NCBI RefSeq assembly: GCF_964212655.1
Contig: NZ_OZ156465.1
Span: 1,426,001-1,490,000, forward strand
Source of the DNA: Candidatus Thiodiazotropha sp. LNASS1
GTDB taxonomy: Bacteria; Pseudomonadota; Gammaproteobacteria; Chromatiales; Chromatiaceae
Direction of reading: 5' to 3'
Length of the DNA: 64,000 nucleotides
Shown here: positions 889 to 13,446 of the stretch, in pieces
Layout of the letters: every line of letters starts with the position of its first letter
Position numbering within the stretch: position 1 is the stretch's first letter
Made by a program: the position numbers and the translations under genes
The notes under the pieces: model-generated
Database searches by the model: none
Seen by the model: only the letters and a program-made list of their open reading frames with translations
Told to the model about the DNA's origin: nothing

Positions 889-1767
889 ATGATTGAGGCG
901 GAAAACCTCTGCAAGCACTATGCGGGTATCAAAGCGGTGGACGGAGTCAGCTTCTCGATCCCCCGCGGTGTCTGCTTCGGTCTGCTTGGCCCCAATGGTG
1001 CGGGCAAGACCACCACCGTGGAGATGCTCGAGGGGATCAAGACCCCAACATCGGGCCAGATACGATACAAGGGCGAGCCCCTGGGCAAACGTTTCCGTAA
1101 CGAGGCGGGGATCATGTTTCAGCACACCGCCCTACAGGAGTATATCCGTGTGGACGAGGTGCTGAAGATGTTTCAGCAGTTCTATACCAAGACTCGCCCT
1201 ATCGATGAGTTGGTGGAGATCTGCGCTCTGGAAGAGTTCCTGTCGCGGGATACGCGCAAACTCTCAGGTGGTCAGAAGCAGCGGCTGCTGTTGGCCATCG
1301 CGCTGATAAACGATCCGGAAGTGGTATTCCTCGACGAACCCACCACCGGTCTCGATCCGCAGTCGCGGCGTAATCTCTGGCATCAGGTTCGCCGCATCAA
1401 GGCGGAAAACAAAACCCTGGTGCTGACCACACACTATATGGAAGAGGCGTTTGAACTCTGTGATGAGATCATCATCATGGATCATGGTACGATCATCGCC
1501 CAGGGCATTCCGAAAACCCTGCTGGCCAACCACTTCGACAAATCGGTGATCACCCTGCCACTCTCCGCCCTGCCCGAGGATTTTCAAGCCGATGAATGCT
1601 CCACACTCCACCCCCAGGATGGGCAGATGGAGATCCTCTCTAAGGATGTGGATACCACCATACACCACCTGGCAGCCCAGAAGATCTCTTTGCAGCAGTT
1701 ACAGGTGCGTTCGCCGACCCTGGAAGATCTGTTCCTGGAACTGACCGGGCATCATCTGCGCACCTAG
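889..1767 (+). CDS. ABC transporter ATP-binding protein (DrrA/NodI type)
   Basis: ATPase subunit (292 residues) of an ABC-2 exporter. Walker A is GPNGAGKTTT near residue 36, the signature LSGGQKQR near 125, Walker B VVFLDEPTTGLD near 145, and the switch His is in TTHYMEEA. The C-terminal 80 residues form the extra domain common in drug and polysaccharide export ATPases. It is followed after 13 nt by its membrane partner at 1781. Substrate cannot be read from the sequence; because the downstream genes look biosynthetic, export of their product is an attractive but unproven role. Confidence 0.93.
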   Translation: MIEAENLCKHYAGIKAVDGVSFSIPRGVCFGLLGPNGAGKTTTVEMLEGIKTPTSGQIRYKGEPLGKRFRNEAGIMFQHTALQEYIRVDEVLKMFQQFYTKTRPIDELVEICALEEFLSRDTRKLSGGQKQRLLLAIALINDPEVVFLDEPTTGLDPQSRRNLWHQVRRIKAENKTLVLTTHYMEEAFELCDEIIIMDHGTIIAQGIPKTLLANHFDKSVITLPLSALPEDFQADECSTLHPQDGQMEILSKDVDTTIHHLAAQKISLQQLQVRSPTLEDLFLELTGHHLRT

Positions 1768-1780
1768 GATCGCTCTCACT

Positions 1781-2779
1781 ATGTCGCTTCGTCGCTTTCT
1801 GGCTGCCCTGCAAGCACGCAACCTGGAGTTCCTGCGAGACCACACCGCACTCGGCTGGAACCTGATCATGCCGGTATTGATCGTGATGGGTTTCGCCTTT
1901 GCATTCACCACCGGACAGGAGGAACTCTACAAGGTTGGACTGTATGGGGATCCTGAACAGAATCAGAGCGTGGATGATTTCCTGAAGACCCGGTATGTGG
2001 ATTTCATCCCGGTGGATGACCTGAGCAGGATGATCGACAAGGTGGACAGGCACCAGATAGATCTGTTGCTGGACCTGCAAAGCAACCGATATTGGGTCAA
2101 CAGCACCTCGCCCAAGGGTTACCTGCTTGAGCAGCTGTTGTCGCCCTACGGGCTGCAGCGCGAGACGCTCAGCGGGTCGGAGATACGCTATGTGGATTGG
2201 GTCATTCCCGGTGTCCTGGGCATGAACATCATGTTCAGCGCCCTGTTCGGCGTAGGCTACGTCATTGTCAGGTATCGAAAAAATGGCGTCTTGAAACGGT
2301 TGCGGGCAACCCCGCTCAGCGCCTTCGAGTTTATATCGGCACAGATTGCATCGCGCCTGTTGATGATCGTAGCGGTCACCGTGCTGGTCTATGTGGGGAC
2401 TGACCTGGTGGTGGATTTCCGCATGGTCGGTTCCTACTGGCTGCTCTTTCTGATCCTCATTCTCGGTGCGCTCAGCATGATCAGCGTCGGGCTGCTGGTG
2501 GCGGCCCGCATCACCAGCGAAGAAGCGGCAAACGGGCTGCTGAATCTGATGAGCTGGCCCATGATGTTGCTGTCGGGGGTCTGGTTCTCGCTGGAAGGCT
2601 CACATCCGTTTGTGCAGAACCTGGCACTGGCCCTGCCATTGACCCACATGGTGGATGCTGCCCGGGTGGTCATGATCGAGGGTGCAGGATTTATGGATGT
2701 GGCTTCCCAGCTGTTCATCCTCACGCTATTTACCTTATGCTTTGTCATCATAGGTTCAAAAACCTTTCGCTGGGAGTAG
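1781..2779 (+). CDS. ABC-2 type transporter permease
   Basis: Membrane subunit (332 residues) pairing with the ATPase at 889. One hydrophobic helix lies near the N terminus (WNLIMPVLIVMGFAFAF), then a periplasmic domain of about 110 residues, then five more hydrophobic segments from about residue 145 to the end, the ABC2_membrane arrangement. The segment WPMMLLSGVWFSLEG is a typical late-helix signature of this family. The stop lies 5 nt before the deaminase start, so the genes are probably on one transcript. Confidence 0.9.
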   Translation: MSLRRFLAALQARNLEFLRDHTALGWNLIMPVLIVMGFAFAFTTGQEELYKVGLYGDPEQNQSVDDFLKTRYVDFIPVDDLSRMIDKVDRHQIDLLLDLQSNRYWVNSTSPKGYLLEQLLSPYGLQRETLSGSEIRYVDWVIPGVLGMNIMFSALFGVGYVIVRYRKNGVLKRLRATPLSAFEFISAQIASRLLMIVAVTVLVYVGTDLVVDFRMVGSYWLLFLILILGALSMISVGLLVAARITSEEAANGLLNLMSWPMMLLSGVWFSLEGSHPFVQNLALALPLTHMVDAARVVMIEGAGFMDVASQLFILTLFTLCFVIIGSKTFRWE

Positions 2780-2784
2780 ACAGG

Positions 2785-3261
2785 ATGGATCATCAGGACG
2801 AGACATTCATGACCGAGGCGCTGAAGCTTGCGCAACGGGGCATCGAGCAGGGCGATGGCGGTCCCTTCGGCGCGGTGGTGGTCATGGATGGCCGGATTAT
2901 CGGGCGTGGCTGGAATCAGGTAATCAAGCGCAACGATCCCACCGCGCATGCGGAAATAGTGGCGATACGCGAGGCCTGCTCTCATGCTGCGAGCTATCAC
3001 CTGACCGGCAGTGTACTCTATACCACCTGTGAACCCTGCCCGATGTGCCTGAGCGCCGCCTACTGGGCCCATATAGATCGTCTGGTCTATGCCGCTGAGG
3101 CGGATGACGCCGCTGCCATCGGTTTTAACGACAGTTTCATACAGGCTGAATTGCACAAGCCGAGGGATGGAAGAGCCATGGCCACCCAACAACTTCTCAG
3201 GGAACGCAGTCTCGCCCTGTTCAGGCAGTGGCAGACGAGTGACAAGCGTGTCGACTATTGA
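2785..3261 (+). CDS. zinc-dependent nucleoside/guanine deaminase family protein
   Basis: A 158-residue cytidine/deoxycytidylate deaminase-fold enzyme. The zinc site is complete: HAEIVAIREA supplies the His ligand and the catalytic Glu, and EPCPMCLSA supplies the two Cys ligands. Size and the C-terminal segment with FNDSFIQAEL resemble guanine deaminases and related nucleoside deaminases more than TadA, but substrate is not certain. The open frame extends upstream to 2737 inside the permease gene; the ATG at 2785 is chosen because GGAG lies about 8 nt before it. Tight spacing to the ABC permease suggests a shared operon. Confidence 0.85.
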   Translation: MDHQDETFMTEALKLAQRGIEQGDGGPFGAVVVMDGRIIGRGWNQVIKRNDPTAHAEIVAIREACSHAASYHLTGSVLYTTCEPCPMCLSAAYWAHIDRLVYAAEADDAAAIGFNDSFIQAELHKPRDGRAMATQQLLRERSLALFRQWQTSDKRVDY

Positions 3262-3336
3262 GCGGTTCCCCCTTATCGCCCCGATTTTGCAAGGCCAGGA
3301 CTTGGATTAAAACAACATAAAACAGTAACAAATACT

Positions 3337-5271
3337 ATGTGCGGTATTGCAGGCATCTTAAATCTCAAAGACGGCATTCCACCCTCCAGAAGCGAACTCG
3401 AGGGCATGATACACACTGTCCATCACCGCGGCCCAGACGGTTACGGCTACTACTGTCATGACAGAGTGGGGCTGGCCCACGCCCGTCTCAGCATCATCGA
3501 CCTGGCGGGGGGCGACCAGCCGATCCACAATGAGGATCAGTCAGTGCAGGTGGTCTTCAATGGGGAGATCTTCAACTACGTTGAACTGACCGCTCAGCTC
3601 AAGCAGCAGGGACACCGCTTCTACACCCACTCAGACACCGAAGTCATCGTCCACCTCTATGAAGAGTATGCAGAGAAGTTCGTCGACCATCTGAACGGGC
3701 AGTTCGCCATCGCCCTGTGGGACCGCACCAGGCAGAAACTGATACTCGCCAGGGACAGAACGGGGATTCGCCCGCTGTTCACCGTCGAAACCGGAGGCCG
3801 GCTCTATTTCGCCTCGGAGGTAAAGTCCCTGTTCGCTCACCCCGCTATTCCACGCCAGATCAATCTGACCGCTTTGCAGGAAGTGTTTACCTTCTGGACA
3901 ACCCTGCCTCCTCACTCGCTCTTCGAGTCGGTGGAGGTTGTCCCCCCCGGTCACCTGATGGTGATCGAAAATGGCGTTAAGAGCCTCTCCAGATATTGGG
4001 ATTGGACCTATCCCAACGAGCAGATCGATCAGCACAAATCCGTGGCGGAGTGGAGTGAGGAGCTGAAGGCGTTGATGATCGACTCGGTGCGGCTGCAGCT
4101 ACGCTCCGATGTACCGGTGGGTGCCTACCTCAGTGGCGGCCTGGATTCCTCGGTGCTGACTTCCCTGATCAAGAACTTCACCGATACACCGCTCAGGACC
4201 TTCTCCATCGGATTCGAGGATGAAGAGTTCGACGAGAGCGGTTTTCAAAAAGACCTGGTCGACTATCTGGGCACCAATCATACCCATGTACTGTGCAAGC
4301 GCTCGGATATCGGGACCGCCTTTCCAAGGGTCATCTCCCATACCGAGTCTGCGATCGTCAGGACCGCGCCAACTCCGCTGATGCTCCTCTCCGGCGCGGT
4401 TCGCGAGGCCGGGTACAAGGTTGTCCTGACCGGCGAAGGGGCGGATGAGGTATTCGGCGGCTACGATATCTTCAAAGAGGCCAAGGTAAGGCGTTTCTGG
4501 AGCCATGCCCCGGATTCAGAGTGGCGCCCCCTGATCCTGCAGCGCCTCTACCCCTACCTGAAACATTCGCCCACCACCAGCGGGGCCTTTTCCAAACGTT
4601 TCTTTCAACAGGGCATGGAACATCTCGACAAGCCCTATTTTGCCCATATACCGCGTTGGGCCACGACCCAGCGCATCATGCAGTTCTTTTCCGATGAGGC
4701 ACGGGCAGCCGTCAAACCGATAGCTTTTGACGCCATCAATCGCATTCTGCCGGCGGAGATCGACGCCTGGAAATCCCTCAACCGTGATCAGTACATCGAA
4801 GCCAATACCCTGTTATCCGGTTATCTGCTGAGCTCTCAGGGAGACCGAGTGGCGATGGCCAACTCCATCGAAGGCCGATACCCCTTCCTCGACCACCGGG
4901 TGATAGAGTTTGCGGCAACCCTCCCCAGCCGCTACAAGATCATGGGGTTGAATGAAAAATATATGCTCAAGCAGACGATGCAGGGACTGATACCGGAAAG
5001 CATCAGAAACCGCAGCAAACAACCCTATCGCGCACCGGACAGTCAATCCTTCTTCGACGGCGAGACCCCGCTGGAATATGTCGCCTACCTGTTGAGTGAG
5101 GAACGGATCCGGAAAGCGGGATACTATAATCCGAAAACCGTCAATCTGCTGTTGAAAAAATGCGCCCGGGGCAAGGCTCTGGGATTCGCCGACAACATGG
5201 CCTTTGTGGGTATCCTCTCCAGTATGCTGGTGGATGAGCTGTTCATTGAACAAGCGGCAATTGAAACCTGA
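3337..5271 (+). CDS. asnB: asparagine synthase (glutamine-hydrolysing) family amidotransferase
   Basis: A 644-residue AsnB-family enzyme. The N-terminal glutaminase domain begins MCGIAGIL, so Cys2 is the nucleophile and fixes the start codon. The C-terminal ATP-pyrophosphatase domain carries SGGLDSS near residue 266 and GEGADEVFGGYD near 368. The classical reaction is ATP-dependent amidation of aspartate with glutamine nitrogen. Homologues in natural-product, capsule and exosortase loci amidate other carboxylates. Here it is followed by an acyl carrier protein, an acyl-AMP ligase and a NAD-synthase-like protein rather than by amino-acid genes, so a role in modifying a carrier-bound acyl group is possible. 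Enzyme family is certain; substrate is inferred. Confidence 0.9.
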   Translation: MCGIAGILNLKDGIPPSRSELEGMIHTVHHRGPDGYGYYCHDRVGLAHARLSIIDLAGGDQPIHNEDQSVQVVFNGEIFNYVELTAQLKQQGHRFYTHSDTEVIVHLYEEYAEKFVDHLNGQFAIALWDRTRQKLILARDRTGIRPLFTVETGGRLYFASEVKSLFAHPAIPRQINLTALQEVFTFWTTLPPHSLFESVEVVPPGHLMVIENGVKSLSRYWDWTYPNEQIDQHKSVAEWSEELKALMIDSVRLQLRSDVPVGAYLSGGLDSSVLTSLIKNFTDTPLRTFSIGFEDEEFDESGFQKDLVDYLGTNHTHVLCKRSDIGTAFPRVISHTESAIVRTAPTPLMLLSGAVREAGYKVVLTGEGADEVFGGYDIFKEAKVRRFWSHAPDSEWRPLILQRLYPYLKHSPTTSGAFSKRFFQQGMEHLDKPYFAHIPRWATTQRIMQFFSDEARAAVKPIAFDAINRILPAEIDAWKSLNRDQYIEANTLLSGYLLSSQGDRVAMANSIEGRYPFLDHRVIEFAATLPSRYKIMGLNEKYMLKQTMQGLIPESIRNRSKQPYRAPDSQSFFDGETPLEYVAYLLSEERIRKAGYYNPKTVNLLLKKCARGKALGFADNMAFVGILSSMLVDELFIEQAAIET

Positions 5272-5504
5272 CAGGACGGTTAATACTCATTCACATCAAA
5301 CCTGTTGTATAAATATATATCACTGAGGGACACAAAGACCTGACAGGATCTGTGTATAAATATGAGTGAAAAATTACCTGTTTCATTTAAACTGGCCACT
5401 TTACAATACTGACCCTTGGACTAAACAAGTTCACTGATCAGTCGACATACTGAATGGCGAGCATTAGTCTCAGTATCAAACTGTCAGAACATTTGGGAAA
5501 TTTC
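5272..5504 (+). promoter_or_regulatory. A+T-rich leader before the ACP gene with duplicated motifs
   Basis: A 233-nt gap, clearly richer in A+T than the flanking genes. The near-palindrome CCTGACAGGA occurs at 5267-5276, overlapping the asnB stop, and again at 5339-5348. GTATAAATAT occurs at 5307-5316 and 5354-5363. This looks like a promoter/operator region giving the ACP-ligase-NadE-like genes their own transcript, but no start site can be proven. Confidence 0.35.
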
Positions 5505-5750
5505 ATGTCAACAGAAGCAACAATCAGAAACTACATACTTGAAAATTACCTGTTCACCGAGGACCAATCCGCATTAGACAGCGCGGATTCCTTCCTGGAC
5601 AAGGGCATCCTGGATTCAACCGGTATCTTGGAAGTCATCTATTTTCTGGAAGATGAATTCGGGATCAAGGTTGAAGATACCGAAATGGTGCCGGAGAATC
5701 TCGATTCCGTTAAAAACATCGTTGCATTTATCGGAAGAAAAAGGCAGTGA
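5505..5750 (+). CDS. acyl carrier protein (free-standing)
   Basis: An 81-residue phosphopantetheine-carrier protein. The modification site is Ser38 in GILDSTGILEVI, preceded and followed by the acidic helices typical of ACP (FLEDEFGI after the serine). It carries acyl chains as thioesters for a partner enzyme. An upstream in-frame start at 5454 exists, but ATG 5505 has GGGA about 7 nt before it and gives the normal ACP length. The sequence is not the fatty-acid AcpP, which has DSLD at this site. The ligase starts 10 nt after its stop, so the pair very likely works together. Confidence 0.88.
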   Translation: MSTEATIRNYILENYLFTEDQSALDSADSFLDKGILDSTGILEVIYFLEDEFGIKVEDTEMVPENLDSVKNIVAFIGRKRQ

Positions 5751-5760
5751 AGTGACCTCA

Positions 5761-7275
5761 ATGCAGGCTACCCTGGTCAATCGCTTCAGAGAGAGTGTTG
5801 CAAAACATCCTGACTCGCTCGCCGTTGCCGACAGCACACAGCGGGTCTCTTACCAGGTGCTATCCGATCTCGTCGGAAAAGTCAGTCATTACCTGATGTC
5901 GTCGGGCTTGCAGAAGGGTGACCGGGTCGCCATGGTCGTCGCCAACTCGGCGGAATATGCCGCTATCTTCTACGGAATCTGGTCAGCAGGCGGAGTCACC
6001 GTCGCACTCAACACCCAGGCGAAAGCCAAGGATATCATCAACTGGGTAACGCACTCGGATGCCAAGTGGCTGTTCATGGACCTGCAACACCCGGAATACA
6101 AAGATGTATACGAGGCCGGCGGGGAGTTCACACTGATTGATGTGGGCAGCGATGACACCGGAGAGTCAGACAACATCACCGTGGATTGGCAACGGATAGT
6201 CGACTTGGAACCGGCCAATCCGAAAATGTTGCCGGGCCGGTCGGACCTGGCCTCGATCATCTATACCTCGGGCACCACCGGCAATCCCAAGGGCGTCACC
6301 CTCAGCCATGGCAACCTCTGCGCCAACATCGAATCCATCCTGGCCTATCTTGATCTAAGAGCCGAGGACAGCATTCTCAATGTGCTGCCCTTCTACTACT
6401 CCTATGGCAACTCCGTTCTGCACACCCACCTTGCGATTGGAGGGTCAATGATTCTGGAGAACAGCCTGCTCTATCCCCATCGCGTCATGGAGAAGATGTC
6501 AGAGGAGGCAGTGAGCGGTTTTTCCGGCGTACCCTCAACCTTCGCATTGCTGCTCAGCAGGGTCAACATCGGTGATTATGACCTATCAAAACTGCGCTAT
6601 ATCACGCAGGCCGGGGGACCCTTGGCGCCCGCGCTGGCTGACAGACTGAGTACTGCCCTGCCCCATACTGAGCTATTCATCATGTATGGGCTGACCGAGG
6701 CCAGTGCACGTCTCACCTACCTGCCTCCTGGTATGTTGGAGAAAAAGCGGGGCTCGATCGGCATCGCTATCCCAAATACAACTATTGAGGTCAGGAACAA
6801 AACAGGTGAGGTCACAGCGCCCGGTGAGACAGGTGAAATATGCGCCAGCGGTGAAAACATCATGCAGGGATATTGGAAGGACGAGGAGAGGACCGACCAA
6901 GTCCTCAAGGACGGCTGGCTGTATACCGGCGACCTGGCGCATACCGACGCCGACGGCTATCTCTATATCGACGGACGTTCATCCGATATGATCAAGAGCG
7001 GCGCCAACCGTATCAGCCCGAAGGAGATCGAAGAGGTGATCCAGGAGCTGGAGGAGGTGCACGAGGTGGCTGTGATCGGCAGTCCCGATGAGATGCTTGG
7101 GGAGATCATCAAGGCCTATGTCGTGCTGAAAAAGGGCAGCGAATTGAAACAGAGAAACATTCAGCGCCACTGTAAGAACAATCTGGCTATTTATAAAATC
7201 CCAAAGTTCATAGAGTTTATCGAAGAGCTGCCAAAAACGGCTTCAGGCAAGATAAAGAAGTTCCTGCTGAAATAG
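5761..7275 (+). CDS. acyl-AMP ligase / acyl-CoA synthetase (ANL superfamily)
   Basis: A 504-residue AMP-forming adenylating enzyme. Motifs in order: the phosphate loop YTSGTTGNPKG near residue 165, MYGLTEAS near 310, the hinge GWLYTGDLAHTDADGYLYIDGR near 385-405, and the catalytic lysine in PKTASGKIKKF at the extreme C terminus. It activates a carboxylic acid as acyl-AMP and transfers it to CoA or, given the adjoining gene, probably to the ACP encoded 10 nt upstream. The frame is open from 5653, inside the ACP gene, but ATG 5761 gives the standard N terminus. The acid substrate is unknown. Confidence 0.9.
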   Translation: MQATLVNRFRESVAKHPDSLAVADSTQRVSYQVLSDLVGKVSHYLMSSGLQKGDRVAMVVANSAEYAAIFYGIWSAGGVTVALNTQAKAKDIINWVTHSDAKWLFMDLQHPEYKDVYEAGGEFTLIDVGSDDTGESDNITVDWQRIVDLEPANPKMLPGRSDLASIIYTSGTTGNPKGVTLSHGNLCANIESILAYLDLRAEDSILNVLPFYYSYGNSVLHTHLAIGGSMILENSLLYPHRVMEKMSEEAVSGFSGVPSTFALLLSRVNIGDYDLSKLRYITQAGGPLAPALADRLSTALPHTELFIMYGLTEASARLTYLPPGMLEKKRGSIGIAIPNTTIEVRNKTGEVTAPGETGEICASGENIMQGYWKDEERTDQVLKDGWLYTGDLAHTDADGYLYIDGRSSDMIKSGANRISPKEIEEVIQELEEVHEVAVIGSPDEMLGEIIKAYVVLKKGSELKQRNIQRHCKNNLAIYKIPKFIEFIEELPKTASGKIKKFLLK

Positions 7276-7399
7276 ATGTCTTTTTAAAGCTTCGCCTGAT
7301 CATGCCAAAGTGGGATAATATTTTGAATGCAAGTACATCCTAATCGGACGCCGCGAACCATAATTAATAATACCGAGCAGAATCTATCCGGAGAAAATA

Positions 7400-8395
7400 A
7401 TGCCAACATTAGCAGAACGGTACGAAGCTGAAATCCTCGATTTCGACCGGGACAAAGAGGTCGAAAGAATCTGTGAATCCATGCGGGATATCATGCGTAC
7501 CAGGCTGCGCCGTCGCGGCGTTGTGGTCGCGGTATCGGGGGGAATAGACAGTTCTGTCTCAGCGGCCCTGGCGGTCAAGGCCTTTGGCCCGAAAAAGGCC
7601 TTTTTCATTCAATTGCCGGAAATCGATTCGGCCCAGGATACACAATCCCGCGGCAGCCAGTTGATAGCGCACCTGGGCGTGGATCATGCCACCCACAACA
7701 TCGCCGCGACCCTGGAGGCCATCGGTTGTTACCAGGCCCGTGACGAGGCGATTGTGAAAACATTCCCCGAGTATGCCGACGGCTGGAAAAACAAGATCGT
7801 CATTAAGGGGGGTCTGGACGGACAGGTCAACCACTTCTCGCTGGTGGTCCAGGACCCGCAGGGTCAGCAGTTCGAAAAACGCCTCGACCTCAGGGAGTAC
7901 CTGCAGATTGTGGCCGCCACCAACTACAAACAGCGCATTCGAAAGACCATCGAGTACTACCATGCAGACAGGTTGAATTATGCGGTAATCGGCACACCCA
8001 ACCGGCTCGAATACGACCAGGGCTTCTTCGTGAAAAATGGTGATGGTTCCGCTGACCTGAAACCGATCGCCCATCTTTACAAGACCCAGGTCTACGCACT
8101 GGCGGAACACCTCGGCCTGCCCGACTCAATCTGCAATGCGACCCCGACCACCGATACCTACAGCCTGCCCCAGGGACAGGATGAGTTCTACTTCGCCCTT
8201 CCCTATCAGGAGATGGACAAGGCGTTGTGGGCCCACAACATCGGCGCCCCCACCAACGAGTTGGCAGAGATGCTCGGCATCACGGAAGAGCAGGCGAAAT
8301 TCGTTTACCAGGACATCGAAAACAAGCGCAAAACCACCCACTATCTGCATGCGAAGCCCTATTTGATCGAGGCAATGCCCGAGTTGGATTTATAG
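7400..8395 (+). CDS. NAD(+) synthase-like ATP pyrophosphatase
   Basis: A 331-residue member of the NadE family. The P-loop is AVSGGIDSSVSAAL near residue 50; GTPNRLEYDQGFFVKNGDGSAD near 200 and LYKTQVYALAEHLG near 225 match NadE active-site regions. True NadE makes NAD from deamido-NAD with ammonia. This protein is about 55 residues longer than the short ammonia-dependent NadE proteins, with extra sequence between about residues 118 and 175 that contains GGLDGQVNHFSLVV, and it has no glutaminase domain. Its position after AsnB, ACP and the ligase suggests a second amide-forming or adenylating step of the same pathway. Either housekeeping NadE or a repurposed paralogue is possible. Confidence 0.8.
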   Translation: MPTLAERYEAEILDFDRDKEVERICESMRDIMRTRLRRRGVVVAVSGGIDSSVSAALAVKAFGPKKAFFIQLPEIDSAQDTQSRGSQLIAHLGVDHATHNIAATLEAIGCYQARDEAIVKTFPEYADGWKNKIVIKGGLDGQVNHFSLVVQDPQGQQFEKRLDLREYLQIVAATNYKQRIRKTIEYYHADRLNYAVIGTPNRLEYDQGFFVKNGDGSADLKPIAHLYKTQVYALAEHLGLPDSICNATPTTDTYSLPQGQDEFYFALPYQEMDKALWAHNIGAPTNELAEMLGITEEQAKFVYQDIENKRKTTHYLHAKPYLIEAMPELDL

Positions 8396-8614: not shown

Positions 8615-9874
8615 TCAAACCATCATATCTTTACTCTTAAGATATTTCTGCGGTGTATAATTAACCAAAAAGCTATGCAGGCTTTGCATGTTCATCGGCT
8701 TGGCGAAAAAAAATCCCTGAAAGAGATCACAGCCATACAATTCCAACAATACAACCTGTTCAAGTTCTTCCACGCCTTCTGCCAAGGTTGGAATATTGAG
8801 GCTTTTACCTATACCGATAATACTTTTGACCAGGGCAATGTCATGACTATCGGTCAGAATGTCATGGATAAAACTCTTGTCTATTTTAACCACGTCAATA
8901 GGCAGCCTTCGCAGTACACTCAATGAAGAGTAACCGGTTCCAAAATCATCGAGTGCAATTGTATAGCCATCATTCCTGATTTGTGTCAGCAGGGCTTGAA
9001 TCTGGTCAAAATCTTCGATAAAGAGGCTTTCAGTAATTTCAACAACCAACCTGGATGGGGAAATGCCATACTCGGCCGACTTGCTATTCAAATAGCTGTG
9101 AAAATCGTTTCGTAGGAGCTGTTTCACTGAAACGTTTACTGAAACCCTTAGCGATTGCCATATTGACTGGATCTCTTTAAATTCTCGAAAAACCGTATCA
9201 ATAACATAGTCCCCAATAGGATTTATCTGCCCGGTTGATTCTGCGACGGAAATAAATTTATGGGGCGGCACTACACCAAGCGTTGGGTGCACCCAGCGAA
9301 TCAGTGCTTCGACACCAATCACATGCCCGCTTTCTGCGTCTATTTGAGGCTGGTATACCATGTACATTTCTTTGTATTCCAGGGCATTTTGCAAAGCTTC
9401 CTCAATCTGCGCACGCTCATTGCTGATCTCCTGTAGCCTGTCTGAATAGAAAACATAGTTTTCATGAGATCGCTTGGCTTCATACATGGCTAAATCGGCT
9501 TTGCGTAAGAGTTCATCCAATACATGGCCACTTTTATCGGAAACCGCTATACCGATGCTCCCATTGAGAGAGAACTCCAATGTATCGACTCTGATTTTCT
9601 TTTTTAACCTGAGAGAAATCGTTTCAACGAATTGGTGAAGTTTTTTTGTATCGAAGTAAGGCATCAGAAATATAAATTCATCCCCTCCCTGACGAATCAT
9701 CATTGCGTCTTGCGGAGTGTAAGATAACAATCTCCTGGCCAGCACATTTAGGATTTTATCGCCTACGCTATGACCATACCGGTCATTTATGATCTTAAAA
9801 TTGTCCAAGTCCAAATATAACACCGAATATCTATCACCTATTTTTTTTTTGCCATGAAGCGAAAAACATCTCAA
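8615..9874 (-). CDS. C-terminal part of frameshifted GGDEF-EAL protein
   Basis: This reading frame holds most of a GGDEF domain (LDLDNFKIINDRYGH, then intact RQGGDEF) followed by a full EAL domain (EALIRW, ESLFIEDFDQ, DDFGTGYSSL). GGDEF makes and EAL breaks cyclic di-GMP. The nominal start lies inside the GGDEF domain of the upstream frame, so this is not an independent gene: it continues the product of 9834-10940 after a one-base shift in the A10 tract. If that tract had nine A, one protein of about 775 residues would result. Both catalytic signatures look intact, suggesting recent or reversible disruption rather than old decay. Confidence 0.85.
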   Translation of the reverse strand: MRCFSLHGKKKIGDRYSVLYLDLDNFKIINDRYGHSVGDKILNVLARRLLSYTPQDAMMIRQGGDEFIFLMPYFDTKKLHQFVETISLRLKKKIRVDTLEFSLNGSIGIAVSDKSGHVLDELLRKADLAMYEAKRSHENYVFYSDRLQEISNERAQIEEALQNALEYKEMYMVYQPQIDAESGHVIGVEALIRWVHPTLGVVPPHKFISVAESTGQINPIGDYVIDTVFREFKEIQSIWQSLRVSVNVSVKQLLRNDFHSYLNSKSAEYGISPSRLVVEITESLFIEDFDQIQALLTQIRNDGYTIALDDFGTGYSSLSVLRRLPIDVVKIDKSFIHDILTDSHDIALVKSIIGIGKSLNIPTLAEGVEELEQVVLLELYGCDLFQGFFFAKPMNMQSLHSFLVNYTPQKYLKSKDMMV

Positions 9875-10940
9875 GATAGTAACGATTCGGCAGCGAGGTC
9901 AGCTGATCGTGACATGCCTGGAATTCCAAAACCTTTTTTGACTCAGCCTGAATCTTGTCGATATATCGAACGATATAATAGAGAACCAGATTAAAAAGAA
10001 AAAACAGAAAGACGTATTTGAGAAATGTTGCTTTGAACTTTTCCACGATCGATAAGTACTTCCTAGAAACGGATGTAAATATTTCGAATTCGTTGTTATA
10101 GGCCGCCGAGTCGATTAACAATTGACCAATTATTGGATCGTAAAATTCGTATTGAACTATCTTCTCGCTCCGCATAAAAGTTTCAATATCCATACCCGAC
10201 TGCCCAATAATATTCCTCTTGATTTCTTTTATCGCCTCTTCGGGATATGCAACATCATATAATTCCTCATTTCCTATAGGATATAGTGATGGATCGGAGT
10301 ACTGTGTATAAAAGCCGTCATCGGAAGTGGCATTTTTCGTCACCACCACATACGTATCATCATCTGGATCCATCATCCTCCAAGGATTGAAATCCCCATC
10401 AATGGTTATTGCAGTTGATATTACACCTACCGGCCTGTCTTGCTTGTCACGAATCGCATAGCGGAGCGGAATAATCCATTCCCTAAGAGGCTGATAGTAA
10501 TATGTCCTGCCAAGCGTCAGGTTGTCTCTTTCCAAGGTGTGCAAAAAGCTGTCCCTGGATTTTGGATTTTCGAGTATGTTGGGAAGATTATCGGGATTGA
10601 GGTTAGAGGAGGTAATGACCAGCTCACCATCCAGGGTGGCCAATCCATATGCGATAAAAACCGGATTATCCTGCAATATCTCATCCATGATCGTTTTGGA
10701 TCTCTTTATATCGTCAAATAGTCCGATATCGATTAACCGGCGGCTGAGTATTTTCAACATTGCCGCCTGCAGGCGTAATTGATCGTGGGCCGATCTTGAA
10801 ATCAACCTATGCAGATAGTTAAGCTCTCTCAGCTCTTCGTTTTTAACGTCTGACCATACGTATTGCCCCATGCTGGAGATAAGCACGACGGAGCAGCAGA
10901 CAAGAAAGAGATAGAGCCGCCATAGCGAGCTTCGAAACAT
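9834..10940 (-). CDS. N-terminal sensor part of frameshifted GGDEF-EAL protein
   Basis: Membrane sensor half of the same gene. From ATG 10940 it begins MFRSSLWRLYLFLVCC, a transmembrane helix, followed by a periplasmic region of about 240 residues that resembles a Cache-type ligand sensor, a second helix (YVFLFFLFNLVLYYIV), and the first residues of GGDEF (HDQLTSLPNRYYLEMFF). It then stops at a TGA created by the A10 tract. The frame is open to a TTG at 10982, but the ATG is preferred because AGGG lies upstream. On its own the truncated product would be a membrane sensor without output. Confidence 0.8.
   Translation of the reverse strand: MFRSSLWRLYLFLVCCSVVLISSMGQYVWSDVKNEELRELNYLHRLISRSAHDQLRLQAAMLKILSRRLIDIGLFDDIKRSKTIMDEILQDNPVFIAYGLATLDGELVITSSNLNPDNLPNILENPKSRDSFLHTLERDNLTLGRTYYYQPLREWIIPLRYAIRDKQDRPVGVISTAITIDGDFNPWRMMDPDDDTYVVVTKNATSDDGFYTQYSDPSLYPIGNEELYDVAYPEEAIKEIKRNIIGQSGMDIETFMRSEKIVQYEFYDPIIGQLLIDSAAYNNEFEIFTSVSRKYLSIVEKFKATFLKYVFLFFLFNLVLYYIVRYIDKIQAESKKVLEFQACHDQLTSLPNRYYLEMFFASWQKKNR
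9841..9850 (-). repeat. A10 homopolymer at the frameshift site
   Basis: Ten T on the plus strand, ten A on the coding strand, exactly where the sensor-GGDEF frame ends and the GGDEF-EAL frame takes over. Nine A would read CAA AAA AAA ATA GGT GAT and join the two frames; ten give a stop three codons later. Such tracts are known hot spots for replication slippage, for RNA polymerase slippage, and for sequencing error. Confidence 0.9.
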
Positions 10941-11083
10941 AATAAAAGACCCTAAATCGGGAATGAGTTTCCCGGCAACCAAAAATATACAAAATAGCTC
11001 AGTTGCTTTTTGATTTAGAATCCTTTTGACTAAATCAAAAGTTCAATCTAGTTCGCTCATCCTGTTATATAGCCGAATACCCA

Positions 11084-12552: not shown

Positions 12553-13446
12553 CTACCCTTCTGCAGATCCCTTCAACTCCACGCTCTGAGTTGCATAATA
12601 TATGTCGCCACTCTGTTCCTGCGCCCACCCCACCTGGTGTATTGGCAGCAGGGGCAAATCCTTTTCCTCGATCAGTTGCCCCAGGGGTTGAATACCCCCC
12701 TGCATGCCTTTCCACATCACAATCAGTTTCTCCATCAACGGCAAATGGGACATACCCTCCATCTCCGCGTCACAGGCGTAGACATGACCATGGGGCAGGA
12801 TATGTTGGCTCTCTGCATAGAGGTACTCATGCACATTCAGATTTGTGATTTCACCACCCTGGCCCAGCAACTCGCTCAGGGTCGGCAGTGTCGTTGATAT
12901 CTGGGGACAGTTCGATTCCACACCCTGCAGGCGGGGATAGAAGATGGTCCTGCCCCTGACATCGCTCGCAAATCTAAAGCCCTTGTTCTGCTGTAGCGCC
13001 AGCAGGTGGGGATTGATCTGCCACCCCGCGGCTGCCATGCATGTCGGTTTTTCACCGAACACGTCTGTGTAGGCGTCGATTGCCCTGTCCAGTTCCTGCC
13101 GGGTCCAGGTTTCGTCCGCATGGGCGATCTCATCCAGCCAACGGGAGCGGTCATGACAGAGGATGCCTGTCTCATGGCCGGCCGCCAGCGTGGCGCGCAT
13201 GACCTCCGCCGCCCTTCGGTGAATAACCGGTGGCGGCAGCGCTATGCCGTAGAGTCGTGAGGCGATATCGAGATCGCGATACCAGGGTTGCAGGATGCGA
13301 CCGATGCGACGACCGCTTTTATCCGCGCCGGTGGCGAAAAAGAAACTGGCGCGAATCTTATATTCATCGAACAGCCTCAGCAGCGCGGGCATTCCCAACA
13401 GGGCGCCTTGCAGGGTGTTGACGCATACTCGAAGACCTACCCTCAT
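12553..13446 (-). CDS. ArnD-like polysaccharide deacetylase family protein lacking metal ligands
   Basis: A 297-residue protein whose layout follows ArnD, the deformylase that acts on undecaprenyl-phosphate formamido-arabinose in lipid A modification: MRVGLRVCVNT at the start, SFFFATGADKSGRR near 35, AAGWQINPHLL near 138, SDVRGRTIFYP near 160 and VHEYLYAESQ near 200. Compared from memory with E. coli ArnD (GLRIDVDT and HAWDH), the catalytic and metal aspartates are Cys8 and Asn10, and the two metal histidines fall in ILCHDRSRW with no HxxxH. It may be a pseudoenzyme or a divergent subfamily. No arn operon is nearby. It sits 15 nt after trhP on the same strand. Confidence 0.75.
   Translation of the reverse strand: MRVGLRVCVNTLQGALLGMPALLRLFDEYKIRASFFFATGADKSGRRIGRILQPWYRDLDIASRLYGIALPPPVIHRRAAEVMRATLAAGHETGILCHDRSRWLDEIAHADETWTRQELDRAIDAYTDVFGEKPTCMAAAGWQINPHLLALQQNKGFRFASDVRGRTIFYPRLQGVESNCPQISTTLPTLSELLGQGGEITNLNVHEYLYAESQHILPHGHVYACDAEMEGMSHLPLMEKLIVMWKGMQGGIQPLGQLIEEKDLPLLPIHQVGWAQEQSGDIYYATQSVELKGSAEG

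Follow-up and report, generated by a model that had tools for sequence, protein, structure and literature searches.

A conserved unit of AsnB, carrier protein, ligase and NAD-synthase-like genes in a lucinid clam symbiont, and its association with exopolysaccharide loci

Candidatus Thiodiazotropha comprises sulfur-oxidising symbionts of lucinid clams, and the complete 4.75 Mb chromosome of strain LNASS1 carries a row of genes that raises a simple question: do they constitute a single pathway that loads an acid on a carrier, amidates it and exports the product, as was proposed from the sequence alone? The row lies within the stretch of 64,000 nucleotides that was analysed (the window; C1:1426001-1490000). 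The sequence-only reading had described seven same-strand genes with gaps of 75, 233 and 124 nt, and all seven open reading frames were confirmed on the + strand; the gaps proved correct and the family assignments agree with the profile matches. The genes encode an ABC ATPase (889-1767; ABC_tran), an ABC-2 permease (1781-2779; ABC2_membrane), a TadA/guanine-deaminase-like deaminase (2785-3261; PF00383, dCMP_cyt_deam_1), an AsnB-type glutamine amidotransferase/ATP-pyrophosphatase of 644 aa (3337-5271; GATase_7 and Asn_synthase, with an N-terminal Cys2 and the motif SGGLDS), a free type-II acyl/peptidyl carrier protein of 81 aa (ACP; 5505-5750, with the phosphopantetheine serine in DSTG), an acyl-AMP ligase of 504 aa (5761-7275; PF00501 and PF13193) and a NadE-like ATP-pyrophosphatase of 331 aa (7400-8395; NAD_synthase, subfamily NF002048/PRK00876). 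In a promoter/terminator scan promoter-like sites were rarer than in shuffles and terminators occurred at chance level, and the first 12 kb contained no Rfam match. The comparison with other genomes showed that the seven genes are two unrelated neighbourhoods: the first three are local, and the last four (3337-8395) form a strongly conserved unit.

The linkage of these four genes was analysed in two samples. A search of the genome collection with an alignment of the NadE-like protein gave at least 588 pattern matches, at least 509 of them encoding relatives, and the best 80 were kept. Among these best 80 relatives, the AsnB, ACP and ligase genes were all located within 6.5 kb of the NadE-like gene in 58 of the 73 loci from outside the genus, and at least two of the three partners in 67. 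To avoid ranking by similarity, the second sample consisted of genomes taken evenly across the class and across the phylum; the NadE-like subfamily (E <= 1e-60) was present in 18 of 369 class-drawn and 15 of 398 phylum-drawn genomes, with the window's own genome in each count. The three partners lay within 6.5 kb in 22 of the 27 drawn neighbourhoods (at least two partners in 25, fewer than two in 2), against 0 of 20 for the neighbourhoods of the canonical NadE in such genomes (Fisher p 9e-9), where several of the drawn genomes come from one family and the draws are not fully independent. Moreover, the divergence of the NadE-like protein is correlated with that of AsnB when the divergence of canonical NadE is controlled for (partial r 0.73, reached by 0 of 1000 permutations). 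The corresponding values were 0.48 for the ACP and 0.28 for the ligase, and at most 1 in 1000 permutations reached the observed value in any of the three pairings. Judged from this sequence divergence, the four proteins co-evolve beyond the relatedness of the species. The claim that the four genes belong together is thus borne out by the linkage, and the neighbourhood search, which might have found them scattered, found them conserved together. We consider it practically certain that the four-gene module is real.

Some observations fall outside this pattern. At three distant loci, of a Planctomycete, a Fibrobacter and a Latescibacterota member (L109, L112 and L113), the NadE-like gene occurs without a recognisable AsnB, ACP or ligase gene, and it may have a different or older role there. 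Apparent fusions of the NadE-like protein with the ACP or other partners (L112, L196, L080 and others) were dismissed as read-through open frames in GC-rich DNA; no true fusion with a partner was found among the apparent long frames.

The exporter and the deaminase had been counted as members of the pathway, and in this respect the proposal did not hold. Among the compared module loci, the ABC ATPase, the permease and the deaminase accompany the module only in Candidatus Thiodiazotropha. Of 56 relatives, 33 have the permease gene, 19 the NadE-like gene and 20 the ligase gene. One of these genomes (G018) has the permease without ligase and NadE-like genes, another (G014) is devoid of all three, and a third, of the same genus (G011), has kept the permease, has a ligase gene interrupted by an internal TAG (G011:C5:30747-32135) and has lost the NadE-like gene, a case of module decay. 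In sister species, genes of the xanthine-dehydrogenase type separate the deaminase from AsnB, so that the deaminase fits a purine neighbourhood; its score for the tRNA adenosine deaminase TadA (NF008113) was 107.5 bits, under the cut-off of 150. The two exporter proteins scored 236 and 68 bits, under the DrrA and DrrB cut-offs of 312 and 223. DrrA/DrrB-like exporters often serve natural products, and in this genus the exporter adjoins the module on the same strand. These two points favour the view that the product is a natural product, a small diffusible acyl amide that the neighbouring ABC-2 proteins export. Against this view, module loci of other genera are without the exporter, many relatives have it without the module, and the gene order from exporter to AsnB is broken by the xanthine-dehydrogenase-type genes. 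We therefore rejected the exporter as a part of the module and regard the diffusible product as quite improbable. The product is unlikely to leave through the neighbouring exporter, given also that a matching exopolysaccharide (EPS) locus is found elsewhere on the chromosome.

The NadE-like protein of the module passes the 'NAD(+) synthase' model NF002048 (PRK00876) with 479.9 bits against a cut-off of 313; an archaeal member of this family in Methanosarcina acetivorans, a control genome, also scores over the cut-off. The AlphaFold2 model (pLDDT 89.4, pTM 0.88) has the NAD-synthetase fold, with the short NAD synthetase 2e18 as best PDB match (E 4.6e-18), and contains a three-stranded beta insert at residues 130-162. 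The ATP-pyrophosphatase motifs were kept over 105 NadE-like relatives, in which many positions that are conserved in long-type canonical NAD synthases have changed. Compared with the short NAD synthetases, which are the closer relatives, the P2-loop PSAxLW is replaced by PTTDTYS. This pattern suggests that the adenylating site has been retained and that the acceptor or substrate region is new.

The membership of both pyrophosphatases in the NAD-synthase/asparagine-synthetase superfamilies leaves room for a housekeeping role, in which the NadE-like protein makes NAD, AsnB makes asparagine and their clustering is incidental. The genome, however, encodes a separate long-type NAD synthase of 543 aa (at C1:2271903), and a separate canonical NadE was found in 27 of 29 module-bearing genomes tested. 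It also has two other AsnB-type genes, one for the N-acetylglutaminylglutamine (NAGGN) amidotransferase, which has 967 bits for TIGR03104, and the other in the EPS locus. Each of the two proteins thus has further superfamily members beside it in the genome. The sequence-only reading had named the opposite outcome, a sole NAD synthase and a sole asparagine synthetase, as speaking against a pathway, and a role as sole housekeeping enzyme was rejected for both. Because the other two AsnB-type genes encode the NAGGN enzyme and an EPS-locus protein, a point in favour of the housekeeping role, the AsnB of the window could make a minor contribution to asparagine synthesis. Nevertheless, the linkage in 22 of 27 neighbourhoods as compared with 0 of 20, the joint absence of NadE-like and ligase genes in G014 and G018, and the decay in G011 make the housekeeping explanation as a whole barely credible.

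AsnB passes TIGR01536 (512.2 bits, cut-off 267); since the NAGGN and EPS-locus enzymes pass it as well, this match is no proof that aspartate is the substrate. The score for the XrtA amidotransferase TIGR03108 was 447.1 bits, under the cut-off of 816.9, that for TIGR03104 was likewise under its cut-off, and the best PDB relatives are TsnB9 (7ylz) and E. coli AsnB (1ct9). The ligase reached 376 bits for the XrtA-associated acyl ligase TIGR03098, which has a cut-off of 592. The ACP had no Pfam match; it was matched by NCBIfam ACP models and by carrier proteins in the PDB, and it has the D-S signature of carrier proteins within the DSTG motif that is kept in 104 module ACPs. The closest named model is that of the ACP of OlsHI ornithine-lipid synthesis, at 57 bits against a cut-off of 130.

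The neighbourhood of the module in other species provides the main functional clue. Modules elsewhere are flanked by an XrtA-type chain-length determinant (TIGR03007), a sugar transferase (TIGR03013) and a deacetylase (TIGR03006), all above cut-off, by an XrtA tyrosine-kinase-like protein below cut-off (TIGR03018) and by glycosyltransferases. At least one EPS gene was located within 10.5 kb of the module in 16 of the 27 drawn neighbourhoods and in 42 of the 73 loci from outside the genus among the best 80 relatives, as compared with 0 of 20 controls; some 40% of the neighbourhoods are without an EPS gene by the profiles used. The sequence-only reading had set the exosortase link aside. It was right that the stretch 889-8395 contains no exosortase or EPS assembly gene beside the module, but the link turned out to be the main clue, as the modules of relatives often lie inside such loci. 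Moreover, the genome has an exosortase gene of its own (C1:4013428), adjoining an EPS locus at 4.01-4.03 Mb. This locus encodes an XrtA-type FemAB protein (TIGR03019, 314 bits, above cut-off), an aminotransferase, Wzy, glycosyltransferases, an ATP-grasp protein, a deacetylase, the AsnB-type protein mentioned above and a glyoxalase-like protein, and several of its genes have relatives among the neighbours of the module in other species. Most simply, the module of this lineage has become detached from its EPS locus and would act on it in trans. Directly after the NadE-like gene, a GNAT gene is found in two more divergent Thiodiazotropha (L047 and L048) and in many loci of the Xanthomonadales type; a search of the own genome, run without a positive control, did not find this companion. 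The PEP-CTERM paper (Haft 2006, PMC1569441) mentions neither a ligase nor an amidotransferase nor an acyl carrier protein.

Two further genes of the window were observed on the - strand. One (12553-13446) encodes an ArnD-like deformylase/polysaccharide deacetylase (NF011923, 160 bits, below the cut-off of 382) and is syntenic in the genus. The other (8615-10982) is a diguanylate cyclase/phosphodiesterase-like gene that is split into two overlapping frames where ten A follow one another (about 9841-9850), which could reflect a sequencing error, a decayed gene, or slippage or phase variation.

A clue to the nature of the product came from the ligases. In the adenylation domains of non-ribosomal peptide synthetases, an Asp in the A4 motif holds the amino group of the substrate. 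This residue is Asp (LPLAFDYG) in 25 of the module ligases, and it is another residue in 77; relatives of the Asp class score 426-442 bits for TIGR03098. A PrmC-like gene is present near the module in 23 of the 25 Asp-class cases and in none of the 77 others. Parsimony on the ligase tree, some nodes of which are weakly supported, gave about four changes for each trait. PrmC is a methyltransferase that acts on the glutamine side-chain amide. The motif NPPY was found in 20 of the 23 module copies, with none in the other three by a simple motif search, and the tested genomes with such a copy also have a separate, higher-scoring housekeeping PrmC. As the PrmC-like gene follows the Asp of the ligase and PrmC methylates amides, the covariation speaks for a product of the Asp class in which an amino acid bears an amide; for these modules, the prediction is an amino acid that is bound to the ACP and N-methylated at its side-chain amide. 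The clue concerns that class, and the window's ligase belongs to the non-Asp class (A4 motif LPFYYSYGNS): it has Ser at the position of Asp and is without a PrmC-like gene, so that its acid probably lacks an amino group and is predicted to be a non-amino acid.

An acid-loading and amidation pathway, as was originally suggested, remains the most economical reading of the four genes. The ligase would adenylate a small carboxylic acid and load it on the free ACP. AsnB would free ammonia from glutamine to form a carboxamide, and the NadE-like protein, with its ATP site kept and its substrate region remodelled, would catalyse a second carboxylate-activating or amide-forming step on the acyl group, either ACP-bound or released, so that the two pyrophosphatases would cooperate. 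An acyl or aminoacyl transferase would then move the group to an amino sugar of the EPS; candidates are the GNAT protein in sister species and the XrtA-type FemAB protein from the EPS locus of this genome. In lineages with an amino-acid ligase, the PrmC-like enzyme would N-methylate the amide. EPS tailoring is the probable role of the module and an amide product is slightly favoured, while the exact order of loading, AsnB, NadE-like and transfer steps, read from the protein families, is doubtful. As a whole, the best explanation, a mobile, co-evolving module that tailors an XrtA/PEP-CTERM-type exopolysaccharide by these steps, seems to us evenly balanced between right and wrong.

The association with EPS loci and the ability of both pyrophosphatase families to form amides would also suit a scheme in which AsnB and the NadE-like protein amidate sugar carboxylates of the polysaccharide directly, yielding uronamides, and a separate acyl substituent comes from the ACP and the ligase. 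The fact that one conserved unit includes both ACP and ligase, the correlated divergence and the way in which the presence of PrmC tracks the ligase motif favour a single pathway instead, and we consider direct amidation unlikely. Synthesis of an aminoacyl or acyl lipid, comparable to ornithine lipids, would explain the similarity of the ACP to its OlsHI counterpart and the KASIII-like gene near the module in a few loci, but EPS assembly genes are the prevailing neighbours and make a lipid product very improbable. The KASIII-like genes (L063, L064, L095, L105, L116, L122 and L126), some with another GNAT gene, suggest an extension of the ACP-bound group in some lineages.

Within the preferred reading, tailoring of the EPS, it is possible, though we would not yet count on it, that the 'NAD synthase' family is a carrier-protein-dependent amide synthetase. 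The NAD-synthase fold, with a new beta insert, would have been recruited to build an amide-bearing acyl or aminoacyl donor for EPS decoration, and the module would change its acid with the type of its ligase and gain an amide N-methyltransferase where the acid is an amino acid. If true, hundreds of genomes carry the wrong database name, NAD synthase, for this family, whose presence would mark a polysaccharide modification not yet described. The bacteria concerned are many and include sulfur-oxidising symbionts of clams as well as soil bacteria and groups from activated sludge. Little of the carbohydrate modification of floc- and biofilm-forming EPS has been mapped, and the module offers genes to assign to it in a compact, testable set of one ligase, one ACP and two amide-forming enzymes. 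In the open-licence full texts searched we found neither a description of this four-gene set nor a paper linking NAD synthase to exosortase or EPS. Since AsnB and the ligase score below the curated cut-offs of their XrtA namesakes, we regard the unit as a variant on a known theme, a probable module for EPS tailoring in which a carrier protein is combined with an enzyme derived from NadE.

Four known systems can be compared with the module. The short ammonia-dependent NadE enzymes (2e18, 1xng, 3fiu) share with the NadE-like protein the fold and the ATP-site motifs SGGxDS, NxxxRxR and GTxNxxE, whereas the NadE-like protein has the beta insert with a conserved WKNKIVI, the PTTDTYS P2-loop, constant ACP, ligase and AsnB partners, and a separate canonical NadE in the genome. 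The module copy of PrmC/HemK, the glutamine-amide N-methyltransferase, shows the family match and the NPPY motif in Asp-class modules, but it is a distinct paralog that lies beside the module, scores near the TIGR03534 cut-off or below it, and is absent from the window. The hydroxyamidotransferase TsnB9 (7ylz) and the sorbamide synthetase SoaC, an AsnB-type enzyme that amidates sorbic acid (PMC13284220), are examples of the AsnB architecture acting on acids besides aspartate; they belong to different pathways, and no ACP and NadE-like partner pair was found reported for them. Finally, the XrtA/PEP-CTERM amidotransferase TIGR03108 and ligase TIGR03098 are of the same superfamilies as the module enzymes, whose relatives often lie inside XrtA-type EPS loci, but the module proteins score far under both cut-offs and have the NadE-like protein as a constant fourth member.
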